Source: Salvelinus alpinus
Lineage: Eukaryota; Chordata; Actinopteri; Salmoniformes; Salmonidae
Length of the DNA stretch: 64,000 nucleotides
Reading direction: 5' to 3'
NCBI RefSeq assembly: GCF_045679555.1
Contig: NC_092087.1
Span: 86,973,864-87,037,863, forward strand
Below, one piece after another: positions 1,015 through 61,189 of the stretch (position 1 is the first letter of the stretch; each line of letters begins with the position of its first letter). The position numbers and the translations under genes were made by a program. Under the pieces are notes generated by a model that made no database searches, was not told where the DNA came from, and saw nothing but the letters and a program-made list of their open reading frames with translations.

Positions 1015-1785
1015 GCATATTCTGCATTAAGGTCATTCATGCCTCAACACCAGAAACAGGACAAGGATGTGCAATAAGCTGCTGTGAAATTTAACCTCTC
1101 ACTGATGCCACCCGATGACCATATTCTGGAATAAGGTCATTCATGTGCTGCTGCTTATTGTAAGAGATGTAATCAATATGCAAATCAGTTTACCCCTAGT
1201 GACCACTAGTGATGTCATTTCCTTAATCTACCAACCCAACTATGGACATCTCAAGACAATTACTATGACCTAGTAGAAAGAGGAGGAAGGGAAGCGCTAC
1301 TAAGTTACACAACAGTACATTTTGGTAGACAGAAGGTGCTCTTTGGTAAAAGGGGTGAATTGGTCATCAAAAATAAAGAAGGACCAAGGCACTCTTCATA
1401 TAATTAATTAAAATGCCTTCATTTGTATGGCATGTTCAATAGAAACCCTGACGAAGGCCATGCAGCCGAAACATGTCGTTTTAAAAAAAACGTTGTTTCT
1501 ATTGAACATGCCATACAATTAAAGACATTTTAATTAATTATATGAAGAGTGCCTTGGTCCTTCTTTCTTTTTTAATTACTATGACCTGTCTAAATGTGAG
1601 AGTGATGTGATGATGGTTTTTATGAGCTGTTCTCTCTGCGTTCCAAATGGTACACAGGTTTTGGGACGCAGGTTTTGTTTCATTTCTGTTTCTCTCTCTT
1701 CAGACCCGCAGCAGCACAAGCAGCTGAAGAGGACCCCTCTGTGCTCTACAGTACAGTCAACAAACCCAAAACCAAGAAGACCTGA
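1015..1785 (+). pseudogene. Relic 3' end of a Siglec/CD22-like receptor gene
   Basis: Two exons match the tail exons of the intact receptor at 39692-39926 and 40277-40335. The first (about 1041-1133) corresponds to the DVQYAAL ITIM region, but the tyrosine codon is a TAA stop at 1075-1077. The second (acceptor ending 1711, exon 1712-1785) still reads AAQAAEEDPSVLYSTVNKP. Its stop codon is lost, so it would run six residues into the adjoining minisatellite before a TGA at 1783-1785. A second copy of the 3' exon border (1015-1040, like 39929-39956) sits directly upstream, which points to unequal exchange inside the exon. No Ig, transmembrane or leader exons are seen upstream. The intron is broken by an insertion at 1272-1573. 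Confidence 0.85.
1272..1573. mobile_element. 302-bp insertion with 14-bp target duplication and hairpin arms
   Basis: AATTACTATGACCT occurs at 1258-1271 and again at 1574-1587, bracketing the insert. The intact paralogue (about 40063-40076) has this sequence once, uninterrupted, so it shows the empty site. Inside, arms at about 1376-1447 and 1496-1565 are inverted copies of each other around a core containing CTGACGAAGG. The right end is T-rich. The long target duplication suggests LINE-type retroposition rather than a cut-and-paste transposon. The family is not recognised. Confidence 0.75.
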
Positions 1786-2248
1786 ACATTACAAACCCTG
1801 AACCAAGAATACCTGAACACAACAAACCCAGAACCAAGAAGACCTGAACACAACAAACCCAGAACCAAGAATACCTGAACACAACAAACCCAGAACCAAG
1901 AAGACCTGAACACAACAAACCAGAACCAAGAAGACCTGAACACAACAAACCGAGAACCAAGAAGACCTGAACACAACAAACCCAGAACCAAGAAGACCTG
2001 AACACAACAAACCAGAACCAAGAAGACCTGAACACAACAAACCGAGAACCAAGAAGACCTGAACACAACAAACCCAGAACCAAGAAGACCTGAACACAAC
2101 AAACCAGAACCAAGAAGACCTGAACACAACAAACCGAGAACCAAGAAGACCTGAACACAACAAACCAAGAACCAAGAAGACCTGAACACAACAAACCATA
2201 ACCAAGAAGACCTGAACACAACAAACCCAGAACCAAGAAGACCTGAAC
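1786..2248 (+). repeat. 31-bp minisatellite, about 15 copies
   Basis: Tandem units of 29-31 bp with the core ACCAAGAAGACCTGAACAC. The array starts inside the last codons of the receptor pseudogene and matches a shorter array after the stop codon of the intact gene (40327-40497). Long - strand frames across it are a by-product of the repeat. Confidence 0.95.
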
Positions 2249-2261
2249 ATGCCAGGTTTGA

Positions 2262-12470: not shown

Positions 12471-13922
12471 CTATGGAACGCCGTTTGGTTCTTTGCTATG
12501 GAACGCCGTTTGGGTCTTTGCTATGGAACGCCGTTTGGTTCTTTGCTATGGAACGCCGTTTGGTTCTTTGCTATGGAACGCCGTTTGGGTCTTTGCTATG
12601 GAACGCCGTTTGGGTCTTTGCTATGGAACGCCGTTTGGGTCTTTGCTATGGAACGCCGTTTGGTTCTTTGCTATGGAACGCCGTTTGGGTCTTTGCTATG
12701 GAACGCCGTTTGGTTCTTTGCTATGGAACGCCGTTTGGGTCTTTGCTATGGAACGCCGTTTGGTTCTTTGCTATGGAACGCCGTTTGGGTCTTTGCTATG
12801 GAACGCCGTTTGGGTCTTTGCTATGGACCGCCGTTTGGTTCTTTGCTATGGAACGCCGTTTGGGTCTTTGCTATGGAACGCCGTTTGGTTCTTTGCTATG
12901 GAACGCCGTTTGGGTCTTTGCTATGGAACGCCGTTTGGTTCTTTGCTATGGAACGCCGTTTGGGTCTTTGCTATGGAACGCCGTTTGGGTCTTTGCTATG
13001 GAACACCGTTTGGTTCTTTGCTATGGAACGCCGTTTGGTTCTTTGCTATGGAACGCCGTTTGGTTCTTTGCTATGGAACGCCGTTTGGGTCTTTGCTATG
13101 GAACGCCGTTTGGGTCTTTGCTATGGAACGCCGTTTGGGTCTTTGCTATGGAACGCCGTTTGGGTCTTTGCTATGGAACGCCGTTTGGTTCTTTGCTATG
13201 GAACGCCGTTTGGGTCTTTGCTATGGAACGCCGTTTGGTTCTTTGCTATGGAACGCCGTTTGGGTCTTTGCTATGGAACGCCGTTTGGGTCTTTGCTATG
13301 GAACGCCGTTTGGGTCTTTGCTATGGAACGCCGTTTGGGTCTTTGCTATGGAACACCGTATGGTTCTTTGCTATGGAACACCGTTTGGGTCTTTGCTATG
13401 GAACGCCGTTTGGTTCTTTGCTATGGACCGCCGTTTGGGTCTTTGCTATGGAACGCCGTTTGGGTCTTTGCTATGGAACACCGTTTGGGTCTTTGCTATG
13501 GAAAGCTGTTTGGGTCTTTGCTATGGAACGCCGTTTGGTTCTTTGCTATGGAACACCGTTTGGGTCTTTGCTATGGAACGCCGTTTGGGTCTTTGCTATG
13601 GAACGCCGTTTGGGTCTTTGCTATGGAACGCCGTTTGGGTCTTTGCTATGGAACGCCGTTTGGGTCTTTGCTATGGAACGCCGTTTGGGTCTTTGCTATG
13701 GAACGCCGTTTGGGTCTTTGCTATGGAACGCCTTTTTGGTTCTTTGCTATGGAACGCCGTTTGGGTCTTTGCTATGGAACGCCGTTTGGGTCTTTGCTAT
13801 GGAACACCGTTTGGGTCTTTGCTATGGAACGCCGTTTGGTTCTTTGCTATGGAACACCGTTTGGGTCTTTGCTATGAAACGCCGTTTGGGTCTTTGCTAT
13901 GGAACGCCGTTTGGGTCTCTGC
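12471..13922 (+). repeat. 25-bp minisatellite, about 58 copies
   Basis: Unit CTATGGAACGCCGTTTGG followed by G or T, then TCTTTG. Since 25 is not a multiple of three and the unit lacks stops, all three forward frames stay open for about 500 codons. The three frames encode the same three peptides in rotation, so none is a gene. GGTC and GTTC variants alternate along the array. Confidence 0.97.
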
Positions 13923-15243: not shown

Positions 15244-15800
15244 TGTCATGTTTTGTCATTGATCATCATGTCTTGTCCCTGTGCTTCCCTCTGCTGGTCT
15301 TATTAGGTTCTTTCCCTCTTTCTATCCCTCTCTCTCCCCCTCCCTCTCTCCCTCTCTCGCTCTCTCTCTCTATCGTTCCGTTCCTGCTCCCAGCTGTTTC
15401 TCATTCTCCTAACTACCTCATTTACTCTTTCACACCTGTCCCCTATTTTGCCCTCTGATTAGAGTCCCTATTTCTCCCTCTGTTTTCCGCTTCTGTCCTT
15501 GTCGGATTCTTGTTTGATGTTTGCTGTTCTGTGTCCTTGTTCCGCCCTGTCGTGTTTTTGCCTTCTTCAGATGCTGCGTGTGAGCAGGTGTCTATGTCAG
15601 CTACGGCCTGTGCCTTCCTGAAGCGACCTGCAGTCTGTGGTCGCGTCTCCAGTCGTTCCTCTCTACTGACGAGAGGATTTCAGTTTCCTGTTTTGGATTT
15701 ACCTATGATATTATCCAGGAGTATCATTGTTTGTTTTAGACTGGAATAAAGACTCTGTTTCTATTAAGTCGCTTTTGGGTCCTCATTCACCAGCATAACA
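15244..15800 (+). repeat. 5' LTR
   Basis: Begins TGTCATG and ends CATAACA (TG...CA). It carries a CT-rich tract and an AATAAA signal near 15745. The gag start follows 18 bases later. Confidence 0.95.
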
Positions 15801-15817
15801 GAAGAATCCGACCAAGA

Positions 15818-16738
15818 ATGGACCCAGCGACTACGGATTCTCGCAACACTGCCGTCGAGATCCAGGGAGCAATGCTCGGCAGACACGAGCAGGAATTGTC
15901 TGCTGCTCGTCATGCCGTTGAGACCCTGGCCGCTCAGGTCTCCGATCTCTCAGGACAGTTTCAGAGTCTTCGTCTCGTGCCACCAGCTACTTCCTGGTCT
16001 TCCGAGTCTCCGGAACCTAGGGTTAATAACCCACCATGTTACTCTGGGCAGCCCACTGAGTGTCGGTCCTTTCTCACCCAGTGTGATATTGTGTTCTCTC
16101 TCCAGCCCAACACATACTCAAGAGAGAGAGCTCGGATCGCTTACGTCATATCACTCCTTACTGGTCGGGCTCGGGAGTGGGGCACAGCTATCTGGGAGGC
16201 AAGGGCTGAGTGTTCTAACGTTTATCAGAACTTTAAAGAGGAGATGATACGGGTTTTTGATCGTTCAGTTTTTGGGAAGGAGGCTTCCAGGGCCCTGGCT
16301 TCCCTATGTCAAGGTGATCGATCCATAACGGATTACTCTATAGAGTTTCGCACTCTTGCTGCATCCAGTGACTGGAACGAGCCGGCGTTGCTCGCTCGTT
16401 TTCTGGAGGGACTCCACGCTGAGGTTAAGGATGAGATTCTCTCCCGGGAGGTTCCTTCCAGCGTGGACTCTTTGATTGCACTCGCCATCCGCATAGAACG
16501 ACGGGTAGATCTTCGTCACCGAGCTCGTGGAAGAGAGCTCGCGTTAACGGTGTTTCCCCTCTCCGCATCTCAACCATCTCCTCCCACCGGCTCAGAGACT
16601 GAGCCCATGCAGCTGGGAGGTATTCGCATCTCGACTAAGGAGAGGGAACGGAGAATCACCAACCACCTTTGCCTCTATTGCGGTTCTGCTGGACATTTTG
16701 TCATGTCATGTCCAGTAAAAGCCAGAGCTCATCAGTAA
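15818..16738 (+). CDS. gag: Gag polyprotein of Ty3/gypsy element
   Basis: 306 residues forming the structural capsid protein that packages element RNA in cytoplasmic particles. The N-terminus (about residues 1-60) is coiled-coil-like. A capsid-type region (about 70-230) includes [10 protein letters not shown] and [14 protein letters not shown] single zinc knuckle, [14 protein letters not shown] (CX2CX4HX4C), lies near residue 290. The start ATG lies just after the 5' LTR. The frame overlaps the upstream part of the pol frame by about 70 bases, with pol in the -1 frame, so pol is probably made by frameshifting. No textbook slippery heptamer was found. Confidence 0.95.
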
Positions 16739-19700
16739 GCGGAGGGCTACTGGTGAGCGCTACTACTCAGGTCTCTCCATCAAGATCCTGTACTACCTTG
16801 TCGGTCCATCTACGCTGGACCGGTTCGGCTGCTTCCTGCAGTGCCTTGATAGACTCTGGGGCTGAGGGTTGTTTTATGGACGAAGCATGGGCTCGGAAAC
16901 ATGACATTCCTCTCAGACAGTTAGGGAAGCCCACGCCCATGTTCGCCTTAGATGGTAGTCTTCTCCCCAGTATCAGATGTGAGACACTACCTTTAACCCT
17001 CACTGTATCTGGTAACCACAGTGAGACCATTTCCTTTTTGATTTTTCGTTCACCTTTTACACCTGTTGTTTTGGGTCATCCCTGGCTAGTATGTCATAAT
17101 CCTTCTATTAATTGGTCTAGTAATTCTATCCTATCCTGGAACGTTTCTTGTCATGTGAAGTGTTTAATGTCTGCTATCCCTCCTGTTTCTTCTGTCCCCT
17201 CTACTCAGGAGGAACCTGGTGATTTGACAGGAGTGCCGGAGGAATATCATGATCTGTGCTCGGTCTTCAGTCGGTCCAGAGCCAACTCTCTTCCTCCTCA
17301 CCGGTCGTATGATTGTTGTATTGATCTCCTTCCGGGGACCACTCCCCCTCGGGGTAGACTATACTCTCTGTCGGCTCCCGAACGTAAGGCTCTCGAGGAT
17401 TATCTGTCTGTTTCTCTCGACGCCGGTACCGTGGTGCCTTCTTCCTCTCCCGCCGGAGAGGGGGTTTTTTTTGTTAAGAAGAAGGACGGTACTCTGCGCC
17501 CCTGCGTGGATTATCGAGGGCTGAATGACATAACGGTTAAGAATCGTTATCCGCTTCCCCTTATGTCGTCAGCCTTCGAGATTCTGCAGGGAGCCAGGTT
17601 CTTTACTAAGTTGGACCTTCGTAACGCTTACCATCTCGTGCGCATCAGAGAGGGGGACGAGTGGAAAACGGCGTTTAACACTCCGTTAGGGCATTTTGAA
17701 TACCGGGTTCTGCCGTTCGGTCTCGCTAATGCTCCAGCTGTCTTTCAGGCATTAGTTAATGATGTACTGAGAGACATGCTGAACATCTTTGTTTTCGTTT
17801 ACCTTGACGATATCCTGATTTTTTCACCGTCACTCGAGATTCATGTTCAGCACGTTCGACGTGTACTCCAGCGCCTTTTAGAGAATTGTCTCTACGTGAA
17901 GGCTGAGAAGTGCGCCTTTCATGTCTCCTCTGTCACATTTCTCGGTTCTGTTATTTCCGCTGAAGGCATTCAGATGGATCCCGCTAAGGTCCAGGCTGTC
18001 AGCGATTGGCCCGTTCCTAAGTCACGTGTCGAGTTGCAGCGCTTTCTCGGTTTCGCTAATTTCTATCGGCGTTTCATTCGTAATTTCGGTCAAGTGGCTG
18101 CCCCTCTCACAGCTCTGACTTCTGTCAAGACTTGCTTTAAGTGGTCCGGTTCCGCCCAGGGAGCTTTTGATCTCCTCAAGAAGCGTTTTACTTCCGCTCC
18201 TATCCTTGTTACTCCTGATGTCACTAAACAATTCATTGTCGAGGTTGACGCTTCAGAGGTGGGCGTGGGAGCCATTCTGTCCCAGCGCTTTCATTCTGAC
18301 GATAAGGTCCATCCTTGCGCTTACTTTTCTCATCGCCTGTCGCCATCGGAACGCAACTATGATGTGGGTAACCGCGAACTGCTCGCCATCCGCTTAGCCA
18401 TAGGCGAATGGCGACAGTGGTTGGAGGGGGCGACCGTCCCTTTTGTCGTTTGGACTGACCATAAGAACCTTGAGTACATCCGTTCTGCCAAACGACTTAA
18501 TGCACGTCAAGCTCGTTGGGCGTTGTTTTTCGCTCGTTTCGAGTTCGTGATTTCCTATCGCCCGGGAAATAAGAACACCAAGCCTGATGCCTTATCCCGT
18601 CTCTTTAGTTCTTCTGTGGCTTCTACCGACCCCGAGGGGATTCTCCCTGAAGGGCGTGTTGTCGGGTTGACTGTCTGGGGAATTGAGAGACAGGTAAAGC
18701 AAGCACTCACTCACACTGCGTCGCCGCGCGCTTGTCCTAGTAACCTTCTGTTCGTTCCTGTCTCTACTCGTCTGGCTGTTCTTCAGTGGGCTCACTCTGC
18801 CAAGTTAGCTGGCCACCCCGGCGTTCGGGGTACGCTTGCTTCTATTCGCCAGCGGTTTTGGTGGCCTACTCAGGAGCGTGACACGCGTCGTTTCGTGGCT
18901 GCTTGTTCGGACTGCGCGCAGACTAAGTCAGGTAACTCTCCTCCTGCCGGTCGTCTCAGACCGCTTCCCATTCCTTCTCGACCATGGTCTCACATCGCCT
19001 TAGACTTTATTACCGGTCTGCCTTCGTCTGCGGGGAAGACTGTGATTCTTACGGTTATCGATAGGTTCTCTAAGGCGGCACATTTCATTCCCCTCGCTAA
19101 GCTTCCTTCCGCTAAGGAGACGGCACAAATCATCATTGAGAATGTGTTCAGAATTCATGGTCTCCCGTTAGACGCCGTTTCAGACAGAGGTCCGCAATTC
19201 ACGTCACAGTTTTGGAGGGAGTTCTGTCGTTTGATTGGTGCTTCCGTCAGTCTCTCTTCCGGGTTTCATCCCCAGTCTAACGGTCAAGCAGAAAGGGCCA
19301 ATCAGTCGATTGGTCGCATTTTACGCAGCCTTTCTTTTCGAAACCCTGCGTCTTGGGCAGAACAGCTCCCCTGGGCAGAATACGCTCACAACTCGCTTCC
19401 TTCGTCTGCTACCGGGCTATCTCCGTTTCAGAGTAGTCTTGGGTACCAGCCTCCTCTGTTCTCGTCCCAGCTCGCCGAGTCCAGCGTTCCCTCCGCTCAG
19501 GCTTTTGTCCAACGTTGTGAGCGCACCTGGAGGAGGGTCAGGTCTGCACTTTGCCGTTACAGGGCGCAGACTGTGAGAGCCGCCAATAAACGTAGGATTA
19601 AGAGTCCTAGGTATTGTCGCGGTCAGAGAGTGTGGCTTTCCACTCGTAACCTTCCCCTTACGACAGCTTCTCGCAAGTTGACTCCGCGGTTCATTGGTCC

Positions 19701-19950
19701 GTTTCGTGTCTCTCAGGTCGTCAATCCTGTCGCTGTGCGACTGCTTCTTCCGCGACATCTTCGTCGCGTCCACCCTGTCTTCCATGTCTCCTGTGTCAAG
19801 CCTTTTCTTCGCGCCCCCGTTCGTCTTCCCTCCCCCCCCCCCCGTCCTTGTCGAGGGCGCACCTATTTACAAGGTACGGAAGATCATGGACATGCGTTCT
19901 CGGGGACGTGGTCACCAGTACTTAGTGGATTGGGAGGGTTACGGTCCTGA
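16669..19950 (+). CDS. pol: Pol polyprotein: protease, RT, RNase H, integrase
   Basis: 1,093 open codons; the first ones overlap gag and the true entry point is unknown. Domains in order: aspartic protease with ALIDSGAEG (about residue 59); reverse transcriptase with KLDLRNAYH and the catalytic YLDD (about residue 380); RNase H with [14 protein letters not shown] and WTDHKNLEY; integrase with a zinc-binding HX3H-CX2C region (AGHPG to CSDC), the catalytic triad D in [10 protein letters not shown] in VSDRGPQF and E in NGQAERANQ, then a GPF/Y motif (RFIGPF). All catalytic residues looked for are present. The last 40 residues or so are out of frame: after the 12-C run the true frame moves to the chromodomain. 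Confidence 0.95.
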
Positions 19951-20059
19951 GGAGAGGAGTTGGGTTCCATCTCGGGACGTGCTGGACCGTTCGTTGATTG
20001 ATGATTTCCTTCGTTGCCGCCAGGGTTCCTCCTCGAGTGCGCCAGGAGGCGCTCGGTGA
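19844..20059 (+). CDS. Chromodomain of the retrotransposon, frame-shifted from pol
   Basis: Reads [15 protein letters not shown], then [19 protein letters not shown], a clear chromodomain with the aromatic cage-type W and Y residues. It should be the C-terminus of integrase and direct integration to certain chromatin. It is in the +1 frame relative to pol; the break is at the C run 19832-19843. This could be a real indel or a sequencing error in a homopolymer. Confidence 0.9.
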
Positions 20060-20071
20060 GTGGGGGGGTAC

Positions 20072-20628
20072 TGTCATGTTTTGTCATTGATCATCATGTC
20101 TTGTCCCTGTGCTTCCCTCTGCTGGTCTTATTAGGTTCTTTCCCTCTTTCTATCCCTCTCTCTCCCCCTCCCTCTCTCCCTCTCTCGCTCTCTCTCTCTA
20201 TCGTTCCGTTCCTGCTCCCAGCTGTTTCTCATTCTCCTAACTACCTCATTTACTCTTTCACACCTGTCCCCTATTTTGCCCTCTGATTAGAGTCCCTATT
20301 TCTCCCTCTGTTTTCCGCTTCTGTCCTTGTCGGATTCTTGTTTGATGTTTGCTGTTCTGTGTCCTTGTTCCGCCCTGTCGTGTTTTTGCCTTCTTCAGAT
20401 GCTGCGTGTGAGCAGGTGTCTATGTCAGCTACGGCCTGTGCCTTCCTGAAGCGACCTGCAGTCTGTGGTCGCGTCTCCAGTCGTTCCTCTCTACTGACGA
20501 GAGGATTTCAGTTTCCTGTTTTGGATTTACCTATGATATTATCCAGGAGTATCATTGTTTGTTTTAGACTGGAATAAAGACTCTGTTTCTATTAAGTCGC
20601 TTTTGGGTCCTCATTCACCAGCATAACA
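20072..20628 (+). repeat. 3' LTR
   Basis: Same length (557 bp) as the 5' LTR, with no difference seen. It follows a G-rich polypurine tract and ends CATAACA before the TTTTG target duplication. Confidence 0.95.
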
Positions 20629-33419: not shown

Positions 33420-33474
33420 ATGGCCTTGAGAACAGCAGGAAGTGTGGTGGTGGTCTTTTTCTGGTCTGTGGCAG
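33420..33474 (+). CDS. Exon: signal peptide
   Basis: MALRTAGSVVVVFFWSVA, then one base, then donor GTATGG. The start sits in CAACAATGG, a good vertebrate context. A five-codon upstream frame starts at 33412. Phase 1 end, as in Ig-superfamily genes. Confidence 0.85.
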
Positions 33475-36400
33475 GTATGGTCCCTTTCATAACTGTTTTA
33501 GTTGCCCTGTGTTTCGATTTACAAACATGTCTAAAATGTTAAGAGTCATAATGTTCTTCTATTTGTCATATCTACATCACTTTATATAGTTGTCTTTCAC
33601 TCCTCATTGAGAGATGCTTATCTGTGGTTTCCATTCACACTCAACTCAGCAACTATGGCAACAAAATGTGGACACAACCTTCTATTATTGTGAGCCATTT
33701 TGGCTTAATTGTGATTCCCTTGTGTTGTGTGACTGTGTGTTTCAGTGGTACTGGGTCAGGATGGCTGGAGTGTGACTTACACCCCTCAGAGAATCTGTGC
33801 CTTGAGGGGGTCAACAGTTGATCTGACCTGCTCTTACACATATCCCAGTGGTACAGTCACAAAAACCCGCTGGTTCACTGAATGGGGGACTGGTGTAGAA
33901 CCTAAATATCTAGGACAGGATCCAGAAAATGCAGGTCATGTGAAGTATCGTGGGGATAAGGAGAAAGACTGTACCCTGAGAATAACAGACCTGAGAGAGA
34001 GAGACTCAGCTACGTACAGGTTCAGATTACAAACAGATCAGGAAGGAGGGACATATACTGGCCAACTTGGAGTGACTTTGTCTGTCACAGGTAAAGTAAA
34101 AAATAGCTTTTATTTTGAATTCCATTTAGTTCAGGATAAATGTCTTGGTTTGTATTTACATCTGTATAACATAGGATTTCCTTCATCTTTGTATTAGAGT
34201 GATAAGTCAGTGATAAAGGGATTTACAGTGATATAGTTTATTCTCCAGGTCTTCAGGTGAAGGTGACTGGTGGACATCAGGATAAGACACTGACCTGTAT
34301 CACCACCTGTACTCTGACTGACAACCCAACCTACATCTGGTACAAGAACGGACAACATCTAGATGAGAGCACCTCCCCCCAGTACAAAAACTCAGTCTCC
34401 AGCAACTACATTGATGGTTATTCCTGTGGTGTAAAAGGCCATGAGGATCTCCACTCTCCTGCAGTGTGTGAGTGTGTATTTAATTAACAATACTGTTTAA
34501 CCTCTGTGTGTGTGTTGGTTTCACTTTCAGGTTTAACTTTCAGCATTTCTAGGAATAACTGAGAATATAATCCAGTTGACCTCTTGTTATGTCACTGTGT
34601 TTCAGGTGTTCAGGGTCAGGACTGCAACAGAGTGACTTACACCAAGAGGAGAATCTGTGTCTTGAAGGGGTCAACAGTGGACATATCCTGTACTTATGTT
34701 GGTTATAATACAGTCAAATCATCACTTTGGTTTAGTCCTAAACGGAATGCTAGTTGGACTAATAAGTTGACCCCTGAGGACCTAACCAGAGACCCAGGGT
34801 ATGCAGGTCGTGTGAAGTACCCTGACAAAGAGAGATGGAGATATAAAGATCCCTGCATCCTGAGAATCACAGATCTGAGAGAGGAGGACTCAGCTGAGTA
34901 TCGCTTCACTTTTAAAACTCAAAACTTTGAATGGGGTCATAGTTTCCCTGGAACAACTCTGTCTGTCACAGGTAAGACTGCAGTGTTTGATACAACTGTA
35001 AATCATAATTAATTACAGGAGAATATACATTAACCATCCTGTTAACACAGAGGTGTATGTGGTTTTATACATATTGTTTCAGTTCTGCAGGTGAAGGTGA
35101 CTCCTGCTGCAGAGGGACAGAAGACACTGACCTGTAGCACCACCTGTACTCTGACTGACAACCCCAACCCCACCTACATCTGGTACAAGAACGGACAACG
35201 TCTAGATGAGCCCACTTCCCTGCAATACTCTGTCAATAGTTATTATTCAGACAGTTACTCCTGTGCTGTAAAAGGCCATGAGGATCACCACTCTCCTGCA
35301 GTGTGTGAGTATGAATGAAACTAGTATTGTATGTGGTATCATTTAGAACCAATAAGAATGGTATTACTTTCTCTATCAATATTCTTAACTATATACATTG
35401 GAATGATAAACAGTTTAATAGATGTATGTACATGTATGTTAATATTTTGTTTAAATTCAAAATGAACCTGTCCAATACATCTAAAACATTTAGTCTCATT
35501 ATCGTTTCAGGAATTGATCAGTTACATTTTGTTTCAGGTGTTGTGGGTGAGAGCTGTATGAATGTGACTTACACCCATCAGAGTATCTGTGCTTTGAAAG
35601 GGTCAACAGTGGACATATCCTGCTTTTACACACATCCCAGTTGGCATAACGTCACAGAAGTATCCTGGTTCAACAAATGGGAGTCTGGTGTAACTAAAGA
35701 CCTGATCCAGGACTCAGAGTATGCAAGTCGTGTGGAATACTATCGACAAACAGAAAAGAACTCCACCCTGAGAATCACAGACCTGAGAGAGAGTGATTCA
35801 ACTGAGTACAAGTTCAGATTTACAACTGATGAGGCCAGATGGGGGTATAGCTTCCCTGGAACAACTCTGACTGTCACAGGTAACACTACATACCACATTA
35901 TACAGTTTTGAAGAGTCATGATGTTAATAATTAACTCACACCAATTCTGAACCATATACTCTTTTTTTGTTCTCCTTTAATTCAGGTTTTCAGGTGGAGG
36001 TGACTCCTGAACAGTATTCAGAGTATAAGACACTGACCTGTAGCACCACCTGTACTCTGAGTAACCCCAACCCCATCTATATCTGGTACAAGAACGGACA
36101 ACATCTAGATGAGAGCACCTCCCCCCAGTACAACTTCTCCAGGAACTATGAAGACAGCTACTCCTGTGCTGTAAAAGGCCATGAGGATCTCCTCTCTCCT
36201 GCAGTGTGTGAGTGTTTCTTTATTAAGGGACAGATCAAATTTTGCTGGGAGACTAGACAGGACTGGTCTCCAAAGTAAAAAATATTTTCACATTACCCTC
36301 CCTTTGTACTGTAAAATCAATTGAACACCCTCCCCCCTCAGAATGAACTCAAAATAATGTTTACGACCACAAATAAGAATAACTGTAGCGACCCTGCCTT

Positions 36401-39400
36401 TATAAACGTGAATACCGACTTTGTCACTTCAGCCTGCTGTTGTGGCACAGTCAATGCCACGCAGGGCTACGGGCCAGAAGTTTGAGGGTTCCCGACCACC
36501 ACAGACAAGCTCACCCTGCCTGTTTCATTACACTGCGATCATATACAAAATATATGCAACACATTTTCCACCAACAGGTTTCTGTGCCAATGCAGCACAC
36601 AACCAATAAACAAAACATACCGACTTCGGGCGCTTCAATGTCATGGTTTGTGTTTTCAACACCACAATAACTAGACAATGTAAATCTGGACAGAGAACAC
36701 ATCCCTCCCTACCTTGTAGTCTTACCCAGTATTGAAAGCTTGACAATCTCTGAATGTCATTACACTTGTTGGTGTTTTGTAACAGATGTCTCTTTCCGTT
36801 CATCAAATGTCTGCAGCTCAGTTTGGATTGATTGATTGATTGATTTTATTTGTATGTTAAAAAAAACACATATACACAATATTTTTTAAGTGAACAGGAT
36901 TGTACAATAAAGTCGGGGACTTATTTCCATTGTGGTCCCTATGTTTTACATAAATACATATACAATTATATTGAACAAAAATATAAACGCAACGTGCAAC
37001 AATTTCAACCATTTTACTGAGTAACTGCTCATAAAAGGAAATCAGTAAATTGAAATAAATTCATTAGGCCCTAATCTATGGATTTCACATGACTGGGCAG
37101 GGTCACAACCATGGGTGGGCTTGGGAGGGCATAGGCCCACCCACTGGGGAGCCAGGCCCAGCCAATCAGACTGAGTTTTTCCCAACAAAAGGGCTTTATC
37201 ACAGACAGAATTACTCATTAGTTTCATCAGCTGTCTGGGTGGCTGTTCTCAGATGATCCCGCAGGTGAAGAAGCTGGATGTGGAGGTCCTGGGCTGAATG
37301 TAAAAAACCACACAATCCTCCACATAGCAAAAACTAAATAGATCTGTCCCTAATACATCACTGTAAAACTTTATAAAATGTATTTCTGTGTGTGTGTTGG
37401 TTTCACTATGTAATATCAGAACTGTTAGCATTTCTAGAAAGAACTGAGAATATAATCCAGTTGACCTCTTGTTATGTCACTGTGTTTCAGGTGTTCAGGG
37501 TCAGGACTGCAGCAGAGTGACTTACACCAAGAGGAGAATCTGTGTCTTGAAGGGGTCAACAGTGGAAATATCCTGTACTTATGTTGGTTATTATTCCACC
37601 ACATCAACATTCTGGTTTAGAAGTGATAAGTTGACCCCTGAAGACCTAACCACAGACCCAAGGTATGCAGGTCGTGTGGAGTACACTGGAACATACAAAG
37701 ATCCCTTCACCCTGAGAATCACAGATCTGAGAGAGGAGGACTCAGCTGAGTATCGCTTCACTTTTAAAACATACAACATTGAATGGGGTCATAGTTTCCC
37801 AGGAACAACTCTGTCTGTCACAGGTAATACTACACTGTATGATACAACTGTAAATCATATTGAATTACAGGAGAAAATAAATTAACCATCCTGTTACCAC
37901 AGAGGTGTATGTGGTTTTATACATATTGTTTCAGGTCTGCAGGTGAAGGTGACTCCTGCTGCAGAGGGACAGAAGACACTGACCTGTAGCACCACCTGTA
38001 CTCTGACTGACAACCCCACCTACATCTGGTACAAGAACGGACAACGTCTAGATGAGCCCACTTCCCAACAATACTCTAGTAATACACTAGTAGTGTTGGG
38101 TCATTCTGCAGACAGTTACTCCTGTACTGTAGAACACCATGAGGACCTCCACTCTCCTGCAGTGTGTGAGTATGAATTAAACTACTATTCTACTTAGAAA
38201 GTATCAATCATTTAATATCAATGAGAAGGGTATTACTGCTTTATCTATCAATATTCATCATTACATAGAAATTACACACAATGTCATAGATGTATGCATG
38301 TCTATAGTTAGAATGTTCAGTACCTCAAACACTTGAAGAATAGTTTAGTAGACACTCAAGTCCTAAAGTTTCTCCAAATGTATTATTGTTCATGTTTTGT
38401 GTAAGTGATAGTTCTAGATAGTTCTCTGACTTTAGATATAATTTATTTTTGACATGATGTCATTTGAGGTAGTGTACTACAGTCCTGACCCTCTGACAAA
38501 TTCTGCTTTACTAGATGCTCCAAAGAACACCTCAGTGTCAGTCAGTCCCTCTGGTGAAATAGTGGAGGGCAGTTCAGTGACTCTGACCTGCAGCAGTGAT
38601 GCCAACCCACCTGTGGATAAATACACCTGGTACAAGAAGAATGGAGCTTCATTGAAAGGATCTGAAAACACCTTCCTCATCACCAACATTAACTCTGAGG
38701 ACAGTGGAGAATACTACTGTGAGGCTGAGAGTATATATGGGAGTCTCAACTCTTCTTCTGTGTCTGTGGACATTCAGTGTAAATACACCTAACCTTCTCT
38801 TCTTTTGATCAGAGAATCACACATATTTAAAGTCATATTTAACTTATCTCAATCATAAGTCCAAGTTCCATGATGCTCCTCATGTAAAGCTCTATGTATA
38901 AACAATGTGTTACATATTGTCCACCAGATGGCCCAAAGAACACCTCAGTGTCAGTCAGTCCCTCTGGTGAAATAGTGGAGGGCAGTTCAGTGACTCTGAC
39001 CTGCAGCAGTGATGCCAACCCACCTGTGGACAAATACACCTGGTACAAGAAGAATGTAACCTCACCAAAAGCATCAGGACAGAGTTACAGCATCACTAAC
39101 ATCATCTCTGAGGACAGAGGAGAATATTACTGTGAGGCCCAGAATGGAAGAGGATCTATGAACTCTACAGCTCTGATGATCATTGTAGCAGGTAAAGTTT
39201 CATCTTTAATACCTCAATACAAAATTACTTTTCAAAACTACAGGTTGGCTTATAAAATCCCCAAGTATTAACAAGTATTACATTGATATTCTGTTTTATT
39301 ATTATAACAATATGTAGTTCATTAGAACATGCTGTGTACTCATATCATCTATATTTTATTTTAGGGAAACAAACCTCAGTTGTGACTGCAGCTGTAGGAA

Positions 39401-40335
39401 TCATAGTGGTTGTTCTGGTTCTCATCCTCTGTCTCTCTGGACTCATGTGGTTCAGGTGAGTGTTTTTGTTGTTTATTATTTCACTTTAGAAGATTAAATA
39501 GTTCATTCATTTATTCATTCATTCATTTGTTTACAATACAGGAATAAAGCCTCCAAATCCACCTCTGACACAAGAGGCACAGCAGATGATGGACAGGTGA
39601 GTCTGTTGGAATCAGAAGATGACTGTGATGACTGTGTATTCTTTGTGGGACATTTCCACTCCTCATGTTGTCTGCTCTCTCTCTCCATCAGGGAGACTCT
39701 AGTCCCGTGTATGACAACATCTCAAGCATGGCCATGAACTCTACTGCAGCACAGACAGCAGCCACAGACGACCAGGATGATGTTCACTATGCCAGCGTCC
39801 ACTTCTCTGGCTCCAAAAACCAGGAAGTGCCTCTGTACTCCACCGTCCAAGTGCCTCAGACCCAGAAAGAGGATGAGGATGTCCAGTACGCTGCTCTGAA
39901 ATTCAACCTCCCAGTGCTGCCAACCGGTGAGCATATTCTGCATTAAGGTCATTCATATGCTGCTGCTTATTGTAGGAGATGTTATCAATAAGAAAAACAG
40001 TTGACCCTTAGTGACCACTACGAACCCAAACTATGAACACAACAATGGACATCTCAGGACAATTACTATGACATGTCTATAATAGGGAGTGATGTGATGA
40101 TGGTTTTGAAGAACTGTTCTTCTGTTCCAAATGGAACCCTATTCCCTATTTAGTGCACTTCTTTAGACAGAGCCCTATAGGGTGGTAGTGCACTACTTTA
40201 GACAGAGCCCTATACTGTGCCACCATTTGGGACGCTGTCTTTTTTAAATTGATGTTTCTCTGCTTCACAACCACAGCAGCACAATCAGCTGAGGAGGACT
40301 CCTCTGTTCTCTACAGTACAGTCAACAAACCCTGA
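33420..40335 (+). CDS. Siglec/CD22-like inhibitory Ig receptor, apparently intact
   Basis: Fifteen coding exons with GT/AG borders and compatible phases total 3,303 nt, about 1,100 residues: 33420-33474, 33746-34090, 34249-34467, 34606-34971, 35083-35304, 35538-35879, 35986-36207, 37491-37823, 37935-38165, 38515-38778, 38928-39191, 39365-39455, 39542-39596, 39692-39926, 40277-40335. Layout: signal peptide (1-18); V1-C2, V2-C2, V3-C2, V4-C2 (19-778); two C2 domains (779-954); transmembrane (955-985); tail (986-1100) with ITIMs VHYASV, VQYAAL and VLYSTV. The V domains have the Siglec pattern: no F-strand cysteine, an E-strand cysteine in V1 and V2, and YRFR or YKFR in V1 and V3. Expected role: cell-surface inhibitory receptor that recruits SH2 phosphatases. 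Orthology to mammalian CD22 is not claimed; exon joining is predicted, not seen in cDNA. Confidence 0.88.
33746..34090 (+). CDS. Exon: V-like domain 1
   Basis: Cys in RICAL, Cys in VDLTC (B strand) and Cys in KDCTLRI (E strand) give the Siglec B-E disulphide pattern. The F strand reads DSATYRFRLQTD, with the arginine at the sialic-acid contact position. The G strand lacks the tryptophan seen in the other three V exons. Confidence 0.88.
34249..34467 (+). CDS. Exon: C2-like domain 1
   Basis: TLTCITTCTL has the CX3C pair; one Cys probably bonds to GYSC in the F strand and the other to the preceding V domain, as in Siglec domain 2. It also has YIWYKNGQ and ends SPAVC across the splice. Confidence 0.88.
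34606..34971 (+). CDS. Exon: V-like domain 2
   Basis: Keeps the E-strand Cys (DPCILRITD), but the F strand reads AEYRFTFKT, so the key arginine is threonine. A G-strand Trp is present (NFEWGH). Probably not a classical sialic-acid site. Confidence 0.88.
35083..35304 (+). CDS. Exon: C2-like domain 2
   Basis: TLTCSTTCTLTDNPNPTYIW and YSCAVKGHED, ending SPAVC. Very close to the other C2 cassettes, showing tandem duplication. Confidence 0.88.
35538..35879 (+). CDS. Exon: V-like domain 3
   Basis: The F strand is TEYKFRFTTD, with the arginine, and the G strand has ARWGY, with the tryptophan. This is the only V domain with both Siglec ligand residues, but its E-strand Cys is replaced (KNSTLRI). 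The N-glycan motif NVTY is near the start. Confidence 0.88.
35986..36207 (+). CDS. Exon: C2-like domain 3
   Basis: TLTCSTTCTLSNPNPIYIWY and YSCAVKGHED, ending SPAVC. It is followed by the longest intron, filled with repeats. Confidence 0.88.
36208..37490. other. Intron with transposon debris
   Basis: Holds a tRNA-like dispersed repeat at about 36380-36610, a (GATT)n run near 36826-36845, and a Tc1-type non-autonomous fragment at about 36968-37300 (AAAAATATAAACGCAACGTG near its edge). No exon is recognised here. Confidence 0.6.
37491..37823 (+). CDS. Exon: V-like domain 4
   Basis: Close to V2 (GVQGQDCSRVTYTKRRICVL), but the E-strand Cys is Phe (KDPFTLRITD) and the F-strand Arg is Thr (EYRFTFKT). 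Trp is kept (IEWGH). The most altered of the four V domains. Confidence 0.88.
37935..38165 (+). CDS. Exon: C2-like domain 4
   Basis: Has an extra loop of a few residues (SNTLVVLGHSAD) before DSYSCTVEHHED, and ends SPAVC. Confidence 0.86.
38515..38778 (+). CDS. Exon: C2 domain 5
   Basis: Reads YAPKNTSVSVSPSGEIVEGS across the splice, SVTLTC, YTWYKK and GEYYCEAES: a standard C2-set domain like the membrane-proximal domains of CD22. 264 nt, the same size as the next exon. Confidence 0.9.
38928..39191 (+). CDS. Exon: C2 domain 6 (membrane-proximal)
   Basis: Same start as domain 5 (GPKNTSVSVSPSGEIVEG), so a recent exon duplication. The - strand receptor exon at 60636-60899 encodes the same domain without an amino-acid difference. 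Confidence 0.92.
39365..39455 (+). CDS. Exon: transmembrane segment
   Basis: TSVVTAAVGIIVVVLVLILC then LSGLMWF: one hydrophobic helix. It differs from the - strand copy at 60349-60439 by a single base seen by eye. Confidence 0.92.
39542..39596 (+). CDS. Exon: juxtamembrane tail
   Basis: RNKASKSTSDTRGTADDGQ: basic start after the membrane, as a stop-transfer. It changes phase from 2 to 0. Confidence 0.8.
39692..39926 (+). CDS. Exon: ITIM tail
   Basis: Tyrosine motifs SPVYDNI, VHYASV, PLYSTV and VQYAAL; the second and fourth fit the ITIM consensus (V/I/L/S)xYxx(V/I/L). If the last intron is retained, the protein would end GEHILH instead. Confidence 0.88.
40277..40335 (+). CDS. Exon: last coding exon with ITIM
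   Basis: AAQSAEEDSSVLYSTVNKP then TGA at 40333-40335. The stop codon is part of the first unit of the 31-bp minisatellite that follows. Confidence 0.85.
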
Positions 40336-40497
40336 ACCAAGAAGACCTGAACACAACAACCCCAGAACCAAGAAGTCCTGAACGCAACAAACCAAGAACC
40401 AAGAAGACCTGAACACAACAACCCCAGAACCAAGAAGACCTGAACGCAACAAACCCAGAACCAAGAAGACCTGAATACAACAAACCCAGAACCAAAG
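40327..40497 (+). repeat. 31-bp minisatellite, about 5.5 copies, in the 3'UTR
   Basis: Same unit as 1786-2248 (ACCAAGAAGACCTGAACAC). It overlaps the stop codon. Confidence 0.93.
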
Positions 40498-41861: not shown

Positions 41862-42367
41862 TGTCACGTTCGTCGTCTGTAGAAAGAGAGGAGGACCAAT
41901 GCGCAGCGTGATATGAATACATCTTTACTTTTAATAACGAAGAACACTGAATAAACTTACAAAACAATGAAACGAACGTGAAGCTATATAATATAAGTGC
42001 AGACACAAGCAACTAATACCTAGACAATCACCCACGAAATACTCAAGGAATATGGCTGCCTAAATATGGTTCCCAATCAGAGACAACGATAAACAGCTGC
42101 CTCTAATTGAGAACCAATCTAGGCAACCATAGAACATATAACTACCTAGATTAGTCAAAAACCCATAGACATACAAAAACCCCTAGACAAGTTAAACTAA
42201 ACAAACCACCCCTTCGTCACACCCTGACCTAACCAAAATAATTAAGAAAACAAAGAATNNNNNNNNNNNNNNNNNNNNNNNNNNNNNNNNNNNNNNNNNN
42301 NNNNNNNNNNNNNNNNNNNNNNNNNNNNNNNNNNNNNNNNNNNNNNNNNNNNNNNNNNGGCGTGACA
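41862..42367 (-). mobile_element. Solo LTR (TGTCACG family) containing an assembly gap
   Basis: Starts TGTCACGTTC and ends GGCGTGACA. The flanks AACGC and GACGC match at four of five bases. Unknown bases fill 42259-42358, exactly 100, so its true length is not known. Confidence 0.75.
42259..42358. other. Assembly gap (100 N)
   Basis: A run of 100 N, the conventional size for a gap of unknown length, inside a repeated LTR. Confidence 0.99.
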
Positions 42368-58935: not shown

Positions 58936-60899
58936 CTGAAAGAAAACTAACTGAATTAGCACTAAACATGGTTTGCATGCACACACACACACAAACACAC
59001 ACACACACACACACACTCTCTCTTACTGTCAGGGTGTCATACTCTGGTGACCTGGTCTTCATGTTCAGAGGTGTGTACGTATCACTGTTAGGGTCAGGAT
59101 GGACACTCTGTGGACAGAAAGAGAGAGAGCGAGAAAGAGAGAGTGGGAGAGAAGGAGAGGGAGGGAGAGAGGGAGGGAGGAAATGCATGTGTGCTTTGAA
59201 ACACCAGTCTTTCCATAATTTACTCTAAACACATTCAAGTATAAAACACACACTCATAAGCCAAACCAAATTCATTAAAAGAGACTTACTGTCAGAGCTC
59301 CATAGTCAGGGGACATGGTCCTCATGTTCAGACCTGTGTTCGTGTAACTGTTACAGTCAGGACAGACACTCTGTGGAGAGGGAGAGAGGTAACAATGAAA
59401 ATTGGATGAAAGAGACTGTCGTGTCAATGTAAATTTATGAAAATGGAGGTGTAACTCGGAGCTGGTTGAAACCCTGTTGTAACTAATAGAATCACCTGTG
59501 TGTCTACTGTGGCATCACTGACTTCTCTACTGACTTCTAGTGGAAGTTCTTATATTACTAATACAGTTTAGCAGTTTTTCTTTTAACCTTTATTGAACTA
59601 GGCAAGTCAGATAAGAACTAATTCTTATTTTCAATGACGGCCTAGGAACAGTGGGTTAACTGTCTTGTTCAGGGGCAGAATGACAGATTTTTACCTGAAG
59701 GGCGTTGGGCCAATAAATGTATGAATGAAGTTAATAACAAATCAGAGGTCTAAGGTGAAAGAATAATACAAATATCAATGTTCCTGTAGTGGCTTCCTTT
59801 CCTCTTTACCATAGCCACTGCCCAAGCCTGAAGCGGGGTTGTTTCGGACGCATACAGTCCACACTCAACGTTTCCAAAAGGCCAAACATTCAATGAGATC
59901 CAGGGATATGGTGCAACAAAAAATGTTTATTCTTCTTATCTAACAAAAAGGTATTCTCCAATCAACTTAAAGCAGAGATTACTTGAAATGCAAATACATA
60001 ATATAATATGACCTGTCTGTCTGTCTGTCTGTCTGTATGGTCAAAAAACTATACCGCTCCCGCATCTAGCAAGGACTCCTCCCCCCGAAGGCCCAACTTC
60101 CTGCCTTTATACTAACACAATTAACACAGTACAATGAATGGGCAAGAGGGGGGGCCAAAAACTGAGTTACGCTAACAACAAATGAATATATCTCAATCAG
60201 GTAAATAAATCATAAAGGTACGTACCTAATATTTCATCATATACATTAATATTTAATATATTTACACAAATGTACATGGAGCTCAGTATGTTCAGTCTTT
60301 TATACAAATATGTCCAAATCGGCTCTAACAGTTCCCTTCTTCACTCACCTGAACCACATGAGTCCAGAGAGACAGAGGATGAGAACCAGAACAACCACTA
60401 TGATTCCTACAGCTGCAGACACAACTGAGGTTTGTTTCCCTAAAAGACAATAATGTCATTATAAACTGAAAATGAATATACAGCAATAAAGACAATTTAT
60501 GCAAAACTTGTCTATATAAGCATATGAAAAGTTATAAACCAAAGCGTAATAAAGCAAACTATGAGAAGATTACCTTGAAACATCATTTCTTATTAAACAT
60601 ACTTTTAAATTGAAGTATTAAAGATGTAACTTTACCTGCTACAATGATCATCAGAGCTGTAGAGTTCATAGATCCTCTTCCATTCTGGGCCTCACAGTAG
60701 TATTCTCCTCTGTCCTCAGAGATGATGTTAGTGATGCTGTAACTCTGTCCTGATGCTTTTGGTGAGGTTACATTCTTCTTGTACCAGGTGTATTTGTCCA
60801 CAGGTGGGTTGGCATCACTGCTGCAGGTCAGAGTCACTGAACTGCCCTCCACTATTTCACCAGAGGGACTGACTGACACTGAGGTGTTCTTTGGTCCAT
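58912..60899 (-). CDS. Second Siglec/CD22-like receptor, 5'-truncated
   Basis: Recognised - strand exons: C2 domain 60899-60636, transmembrane 60439-60349, tail 59370-59290, tail 59107-59027, last exon 58935-58912. The C2 domain equals that of 38928-39191 at the protein level. The two tail exons are 81 nt each and duplicates of one cassette (SVCPDCNSYTNTGLNMRTMS..., SVHPDPNSDTYTPLNMKTRS...), with YGAL, YTPL and YDTL tyrosine motifs. The end is NVRGISH, stop. The tail is unrelated to the + strand gene's. Upstream Ig, V and leader exons are absent: similarity stops near 60954. The transmembrane exon ends in phase 2 and the next starts in phase 0, so a juxtamembrane exon is missing or was not found. 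Probably a non-functional fragment. Confidence 0.8.
59027..59107 (-). CDS. Exon: tail cassette 2
   Basis: 27 codons, phase 0 to 0, with DTYTPLNM and SPEYDTL. Acceptor TCTGTCCACAG, donor GTAAGAG. Confidence 0.8.
59290..59370 (-). CDS. Exon: tail cassette 1
   Basis: 27 codons, phase 0 to 0, with MSPDYGAL. Acceptor CTCTCCACAG, donor GTAAGTC. Confidence 0.8.
59585..59705 (-). mobile_element. SINE fragment
   Basis: AACTAGGCAAGTCAGATAAG, CAATGACGGCCTAGGAACAG and TTCAGGGGCAGAATGACAGA are the tail and body of a salmonid tRNA-derived SINE in reverse. The head is missing. Confidence 0.75.
59706..60340. other. Intronic DNA, no exon recognised
   Basis: A (CTGT)n run near 60016-60036. The region where a juxtamembrane exon should lie shows no convincing candidate. 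Confidence 0.5.
60349..60439 (-). CDS. Exon: transmembrane of - strand receptor
   Basis: 91 nt, one base different from 39365-39455 (T to S in TSVVTAAV, giving VVSAAV). Donor GTGAGTG, then unrelated sequence. Confidence 0.9.
60636..60899 (-). CDS. Exon: C2 domain of - strand receptor
   Basis: 264 nt, phase 1 to 1, GPKNTSVSVSPSGEIVEG to ALMIIVA. Nearly identical DNA to 38928-39191, while introns diverge after about 40 bases. Confidence 0.9.
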
Positions 60900-61189
60900 C
60901 TGGTGGACAATATGTAACACATTGTTCATACATAGAGCTTTACATGAGGAGCATGGTGGACAGTATAAAAAAAATATATATACAAAAAATGTTTATAAAT
61001 GTCCCTTTGTCAGGACTCTGTCTTTCAACGATAGTTCGTAAAAATATAAAAACTTTACAGCTCTTCATTGTAAAGGGTTTAAACACTGTTTCCCATGCTT
61101 GTTCAATGAACCATAAACAATTAATGCACCTGTGGAACGATCGTTAAGACACTAACAGCTTACAGACGATAGGCAGTTAAGGTCACAGT

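Follow-up and report, generated by a model that had tools for sequence, protein, structure and literature searches.

A predicted CD22-like receptor gene of Salvelinus alpinus with four V-C2 cassettes and three types of V domain

Exon structure of the gene

We analysed a 64,000-nucleotide stretch of the Salvelinus alpinus (charr) genome, called the window below (NCBI RefSeq assembly GCF_045679555.1, contig NC_092087.1, positions 86,973,864 to 87,037,863 of the forward strand; feature positions are counted from its first letter). On its plus strand lies one open gene (33420-40335) that encodes a signal peptide, four pairs of V and C2 immunoglobulin (Ig) domains (cassettes), two further Ig exons, a transmembrane (TM) exon and a cytoplasmic tail. 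The original prediction, made from the letters of the window, had claimed that eight consecutive exons within 33746-38165 alternate V and C2 in phase 1, and this was borne out by splice sites, lengths and the open frame: all eight exons have AG acceptors and GT donors, each of them (V1 to C4) starts in phase 1 and has a length divisible by 3, and the phase 1 start holds for every exon from V1 through the TM exon. The spliced product of the signal, eight cassette, D5, D6, TM and tail exons is 1,100 residues long, with no internal stop codon. A protein library search (993 proteins; the best 120, almost all with fish names, are considered below) included two automatic predictions with the same VCVCVCVCDD order, Salmo trutta LOC115178712 (P0015, 86% identity, 100% query coverage) and Salmo salar LOC106592614 (P0020, 85% identity, 100% query coverage). 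Because the frame is open, the splice sites are in place and the two Salmo predictions cover the whole protein with the same layout, the alternating array of V and C2 exons is real and chance is excluded. The claim that the gene is unlike the mammalian Siglecs, which have a single V domain, also held, as four V exons alternate with C2 exons here.

All exons lie on the plus strand. Exon 1 (33420..33474) carries the start codon and the signal peptide (MALRTAGSVVVVFFWSVA); it was placed by its open reading frame (ORF) and splice donor, and its start is identical in P0049, an NCBI model from S. alpinus. In cassette 1, V1 (33746..34090) is a Siglec-like head of the type that we call A, with a Trp near the N-terminus, an E-strand Cys (DCTLRI) and an F-strand Arg (YRFR), and its C2 domain is C1 (34249..34467). 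V2 (34606..34971) is of type C, with the Siglec Arg replaced by Thr (YRFT), and precedes the C2 domain of cassette 2 (35083..35304). V3 (35538..35879) is of type B, with the Arg present (YKFR) and Ser instead of the E-strand Cys; its partner is C3 (35986..36207). A long intron of 1,283 bp (36208..37490), the final 106 bp of which match the intron preceding V2 at 88%, leads to cassette 4, made up of V4 (37491..37823; type C, also YRFT, nearest to V2) and C4 (37935..38165). The order of the V types is A-C-B-C. Two membrane-proximal Ig domains, D5 (38515..38778; Ig_2/Ig_3) and D6 (38928..39191), are followed by the TM exon (39365..39455) and three cytoplasmic exons, the first at 39542..39596, the second (39692..39926) with YDNI (a YxN motif) and the immunoreceptor tyrosine-based inhibitory motifs (ITIMs) VHYASV and VQYAAL, and the third (40277..40335) with another ITIM (VLYSTV) and the stop codon. 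Three ITIMs and one YxN make this a tail of the CD22 type.

A 31/62-bp minisatellite (40323-40495, and also 1758-2249) starts within the last codons of the gene. The stop codon (VNKP-stop) lies in the first minisatellite unit, and P0015 and P0020 continue as NKPRTKK.

The exon borders do repeat, as originally described, though not letter for letter. The expected V ending SVTG is SVT-V in the spliced V2, and the C2 border given as SPAVC is really SPAV followed by a codon split by the intron, which yields Cys before the next V and Tyr before D5. All four V exons passed the cut-off of the family PF24518 Ig_CD22 (32.1-38.8 bits; cut-off 27); with the general V-set family PF07686, V1 and V4 matched above the cut-off and V2 and V3 below it. 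The C2 exons matched general Ig families, C1 below their cut-offs. A Siglec V domain has an E-strand Cys, for an intrasheet disulphide, and no F-strand Cys. Here the E-strand Cys is found in V1 and V2 and is replaced by Phe in V4, and none of the four V domains has an F-strand Cys. Extra Cys residues, which Siglecs use for an interdomain disulphide, are present in V (RIC) and C2 (CxxxC) exons. AlphaFold reached a mean predicted local distance difference test score (pLDDT) of 45 for the V1 exon (4-row alignment), and a pLDDT of 60 with a predicted template modelling score of 0.33 for the four-cassette NCBI protein (20 rows), both too weak for a test of the binding site or of disulphides. Foldseek on the four-cassette model returned many multi-Ig proteins (MAG at rank 7 and CD22 d1-d3 at rank 18, with CEA and contactin chains higher) and was not used.

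V types, the Siglec arginine and the genomic cluster

According to the original prediction, one V-C2 pair had been repeated four times. Four pairs in one receptor are indeed present, but they are not simply four copies of one pair. V2 and V4 are 81% identical (nonsynonymous divergence, dN, 0.098; synonymous divergence, dS, 0.092), the C2 partners of cassettes 2 and 4 are 86% identical (dN 0.080, dS 0.075), and the match extends through the introns (34503-35435 versus 37385-38301, 83% over 962 nt), whereas every other V pair in the gene is 51-55% identical. Judged from these comparisons, cassettes 2 and 4 diverged recently and are close to being copies of each other. The proposed tree of the V exons against those of other teleosts was run with 63 V domains from 15 proteins (few columns for many rows, 14 of the 60 inner branches being drawn open); it gave three V types, and by pairwise dN/dS only V2 and V4 were recent copies.

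The type A clade (21 rows, support 98/82) comprised the salmonid V1, the first V of Umbra and of percomorphs, V1, V3, V5 and V7 of perch, V1, V4 and V7 of Scatophagus and V2-V4 of catfish; the first V of pike and catfish fell outside it, on long branches. Type B (11 rows, 98/88) united the salmonid V3 with V2-V5 of pike. The type C clade (29 rows, 100/97) held the salmonid V2 and V4, V2-V4 of Umbra, V2, V4, V6 and V8 of perch, and later V domains of Scatophagus, Siniperca and Epinephelus. V1, V3 and V2/V4 of the charr gene thus represent three clades, each common to other fish families, and type C, shared by salmonids and percomorphs, is an old V type. Recent repeated duplication of one cassette as the origin of the gene was rejected, because recent copying is confined to cassettes 2 and 4 and each of the three V types is shared with other fish families.

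Structural matches differed between the types as well. Profiles were built from 11, 5 and 10 rows (A, B and C) taken from the listed proteins and the window exons, so that typing those same sequences is circular; the ten genomic loci described below are independent of this construction. The best solved match (PDB) of the type A profile was the sialoadhesin V domain, with the Trp, the E-strand Cys and the F-strand YxFR aligned. Type B matched pIgR first, then sialoadhesin and Siglec-7, as the four V domains of the window did when used as a joint query (pIgR, then Siglec-7 and sialoadhesin). For type C the best solved matches were pIgR and antibody V domains, and no Siglec was found among the best 60 of its 363 solved-structure matches; its alignment has invariant columns of its own across ten rows (salmonids and percomorphs among others). 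The alignments omit 9 of 31 candidate V domains, seven as redundant and two as aberrant-looking first V domains of pike (P0091, with Ser at the Arg site, and P0098), and the invariant Arg of the type A alignment is partly due to leaving out these two.

The F-strand Arg of Siglecs is the residue that binds sialic acid. At the site aligned with the Arg of Siglec-7 and sialoadhesin, V1 (YRFR) and V3 (YKFR) have Arg and V2 and V4 (YRFT) have Thr, and so the claim of four like heads was supported neither by clade nor by Arg site. Neither can all four be called membrane-distal: the term fits V1 only, as V4 and its C2 domain sit directly above D5/D6. The S. trutta and S. salar predictions show the same Arg/non-Arg alternation, the residues from V1 to V4 being R, A, R, T in P0015 and P0020 and R, T, R, T in P0019.

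The best 120 of the 993 proteins had 1 to 8 V domains each, mostly with a C2 domain after the V, and carried automatic names that varied from uncharacterized to titin-like, hemicentin-like and sialoadhesin-like. Within this set the share of V domains with Arg was 102/120 at the first position, 68/194 at middle positions and 36/114 at the last, its replacements being chiefly Thr and secondly Lys; some models lack the N-terminal V (e.g. P0063, P0066, P0104), and their 'first' V is really a later one. As the set includes isoforms and close relatives, we thinned it to 43 representatives at 75% identity, and here Arg was found in 33/43 first versus 54/125 later V domains (Fisher p 0.0002). On the 63-V tree, the Arg label needed 3 changes versus a mean of 21 after shuffling; the exceptions were one basal type C row with Arg (P0013 V2) and a single row each of types A and B without it. 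The N-terminal Trp was seen in all 11 rows of the type A alignment and, in the set of 120, in 90/102 first V domains with Arg, 7/18 first V domains without it, 42/104 later V domains with Arg and 5/204 later ones without.

The maximum of eight V domains is reached by four predictions, P0001 (S. salar), P0002 (coho), P0038 (perch) and P0043 (Scatophagus). All of them except P0001, which has none, show a TM-like stretch towards the C-terminus. Relative to X2, three coho models of LOC109878241 (X8, X9 and X10) are each missing one block of 188-189 residues, which equals a cassette in length, and the position of the missing block differs between the three; small differences within the first 200 residues occur as well. 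Cassette skipping, which the exon phase would allow, is therefore predicted in coho on the basis of isoform models, not reads.

Six-frame genome searches with V2, V3, C4 and the tail exon revealed a cluster of 4.8 Mb (84.5-89.33 Mb) on a contig labelled C2 (not to be confused with the domain), which held 140 of the 150 V2 matches, 142 of the 150 V3 matches and 145 of the 150 C4 matches. Matches outside the cluster lay mostly at C2:130.9 Mb, with a few on contigs C9 and C17. At least 170 distinct V exons, not necessarily all in intact genes, are present in the cluster, a count that is a lower bound (the V searches scored 150/328 and 150/350 candidates, and with V2 and V3 as queries type A exons are under-counted). 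From the tail-exon search, in which all 77 candidates were scored, we obtained 64 matches (three with a stop codon, several partial), with 59 distinct tails within the cluster. Linking V exons to tails no more than 16 kb away left 70 of the 170 unassigned; the number of detected V exons was zero for 17 tails, one for 12, two for 14, three for 8, four for 7 and eight for one. The charr gene thus belongs to a large salmonid CD22-like cluster and, by the Ig_CD22 matches of its V exons, encodes a fish CD22-like receptor.

Ten loci were read, chosen non-randomly for their many V matches and with splice sites and frames unchecked. Their units are ordered as signal exon, V-C2 cassettes, D exons, TM exon and tail, one of them with eight V exons; no tail was found in the stretch read at loci D and J and no signal exon at locus F, and at locus C a D and TM exon also occur mid-array. 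The 43 V exons comprised 9 of type A (6 with Arg, 3 with Ser), 3 of type B (2 with Arg, 1 with Ile) and 31 of type C (all with Thr). Type A came first at 9 of the 10 loci, and locus J has the order A-C-B-C of the gene at 33420-40335.

Two further observations concern the assembly of the cluster. Matches at C2:130.92-130.97 Mb score the same as those in the 88.98-89.02 Mb part of the cluster and, by score comparison only, are possibly a misplaced haplotype. On the minus strand of C2:89173846-89195059, three tail exons with equal scores lie ~8.2 kb apart and three C2 exons, each with one stop codon, have about the same spacing; this is probably a recent tandem array.

Interpretation and alternative explanations

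With a probability of about 0.6 for the reading as a whole, we propose that the gene product is an inhibitory type I receptor whose four V-C2 cassettes carry V domains of three kinds, with V1 and perhaps V3 binding sialic acid. The distal V1, perhaps together with V3, would bind sialylated glycans via the Siglec Arg, and V2 and V4, which have lost the Arg site, would act as non-sialic modules, either spacers that determine how far the receptor extends or V domains with a different ligand. On binding its ligand, the receptor would be brought to an activating receptor, either the B-cell receptor or a different one; the phosphorylated ITIMs would then recruit SHP phosphatases and YDNI would recruit Grb2, and the signal would be damped. 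Because cassettes are whole phase-1 exon pairs, they could be added or dropped with the frame kept, by unequal exchange, gene conversion and exon skipping.

Several observations weigh against this proposal. In the set of 120 proteins, 104 of the 308 later V domains have the Arg, so position alone is not decisive, and 18 of the 120 first V domains lack it, so a Siglec site is not a constant feature of the head; likewise, 3 of the 9 type A heads at the ten charr loci have Ser at the Arg site. In a study of salmonid CD22, which compared trout and whitefish with human and mouse in the V-set domain that binds sialic acid, R120 is conserved and almost all other residues that human CD22 needs for sialic acid are missing in the fish examined (PMC7226832). 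The NCBI model P0049 (721 residues) is identical to the gene from the signal peptide through V4, joining the signal exon to V4 in order and so covering seven of the eight cassette exons, and then continues into the intron behind V4 for ~20 residues before a stop, without a TM stretch, which makes a soluble or incomplete form possible. That the product is mainly a secreted decoy of this kind is nevertheless very unlikely, as the TM exon and the ITIM-bearing tail exons downstream are intact and continue the reading frame, and TM and tail are present in P0015 and P0020.

Four equivalent sialic-acid heads acting with high avidity would be in keeping with four full V-C2 pairs in one frame, and with catfish P0022, P0050, P0072 and P0075, in which all 18 V domains have the Arg; P0022 and P0050 have a single TM-like stretch near the C-terminus (signal peptide aside), P0072 has none and P0075 has an extra internal one. 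Multi-headed Siglecs proper may thus exist in catfishes. For the charr gene this explanation is unlikely, given Thr at the Arg site of V2 and V4, Ala or Thr in P0015, P0019 and P0020, a type C clade common to salmonids and percomorphs, and Arg in 0 of the 31 type C V domains at the ten cluster loci. Alternatively, non-binding type C cassettes could mainly form a stalk on which a single Siglec head is carried clear of the glycocalyx, the role played by the numerous C2 domains in mammalian sialoadhesin. A charr unit at C2:89258000-89277999, in which one Arg head is followed by seven type C cassettes, and the variation from 1 to 8 cassettes among the best 120 predicted proteins would suit a stalk, but the V domain of type C is itself conserved, with columns that are invariant in the ten aligned rows, the Arg is kept in V3, and a dN as high as dS between V2 and V4 weakly hints at more than a plain spacer; we regard a mere stalk as rather doubtful. 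An artefact of assembly or annotation, with neighbouring genes fused or collapsed, had been named at the outset as what would refute the array, and the region is repetitive, with copies of identical search score (e.g. C2:88.98 Mb and C2:130.93 Mb). We consider it highly improbable here, because the gene is free of gaps (the sole run of N in the window, 42259-42358, lies outside it), has one signal exon, one TM exon and one tail, and shares its four-cassette layout with the predictions from both Salmo species and its A-C-B-C order with charr locus J. As a separate observation on the catfish models, P0075 may be a fused model, given its internal TM-like stretch.

Extending the proposed receptor with Arg-bearing and Arg-less cassettes beyond this gene, we tentatively suggest, as a possibility rather than an expectation, that teleosts have mixed-array Siglecs in which an Arg head shares one array with an old second V type (Thr or Lys at the Arg site) for a different ligand, and in which gene copying, conversion and cassette skipping vary the length and order of the array. 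If so, with 59 tail exons and at least 170 V exons in one cluster, not necessarily all in intact genes, they would form a system of receptors diversified in the germline and comparable in scale to the mammalian LILR/KIR complex, in which sialylated self and a second cue are read together. The V-C2 repeat unit, the three V types in recurring order and the mostly Arg-less later V domains of the 120 proteins change the meaning of 'CD22' as a fish B-cell marker, and they lead to testable predictions as to which domain binds what and which isoforms a primer or an antibody detects.

Among known systems, the closest are the predictions P0015 and P0020 described above, to which none of the papers found assigns a function. 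pIgR resembles the charr gene in having tandem V-set domains in one receptor and is the best solved match of the type C profile; its V domains, however, stand back to back without C2 partners and serve a different role. Sialoadhesin (Siglec-1) has the solved V domain closest to type A and a long ectodomain, but it consists of a single V and many C2 domains without an ITIM, whereas the charr gene repeats the V itself. Mammalian CD22 (Siglec-2) shares the Ig_CD22 V domain, the V-then-C2 order and the type I membrane topology, and its tail, like that of the charr gene, combines ITIMs with a YxN site. It has one N-terminal V followed by C2 domains, as stated in passages of one article (PMC12837193), in contrast to four V domains of three kinds in the charr gene. 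The same passages give tilapia CD22 two Ig domains and one IgC2 domain (PMC12837193).

Fish CD22-like receptors are already known. One salmon CD22 paralog, not necessarily the ortholog of the charr gene, is restricted to B cells (PMC6362898), multiple cd22 paralogs respond to vaccination (PMC7316828) and CD22-like genes are among those changed in infected steelhead (PMC7901748). We found no description of repeated V-C2 cassettes among the papers listed by the searches (titles, abstract starts and passages); the four-cassette architecture is present in automatic annotation and, as far as searched, apparently undescribed in the literature.

Gene fragments and repeats elsewhere in the window

Other traces of the family occur in and next to the window. 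On the minus strand (60342-60960), a D6-like Ig exon and a TM exon are 85% identical to 38867-39462 and look like a gene remnant; no V, C2 or tail exon was found beside this fragment within the window. Pieces at 1040-2249 (plus strand) match the 3' end of the gene (39852-40495), and a family member upstream of the window has a tail exon whose end lies 471 bases short of the window start.

The window also contains two repetitive stretches. A 25-bp minisatellite (12471-13922) comprises 58 copies, and all three forward frames are open in it for 509-529 codons. A stretch that is retrotransposon-like by its motifs (15459-20577) includes a long pol-like ORF (16639-19950), flanked by two stretches that encode one shared 96-residue ORF and are likely to be two long terminal repeats.

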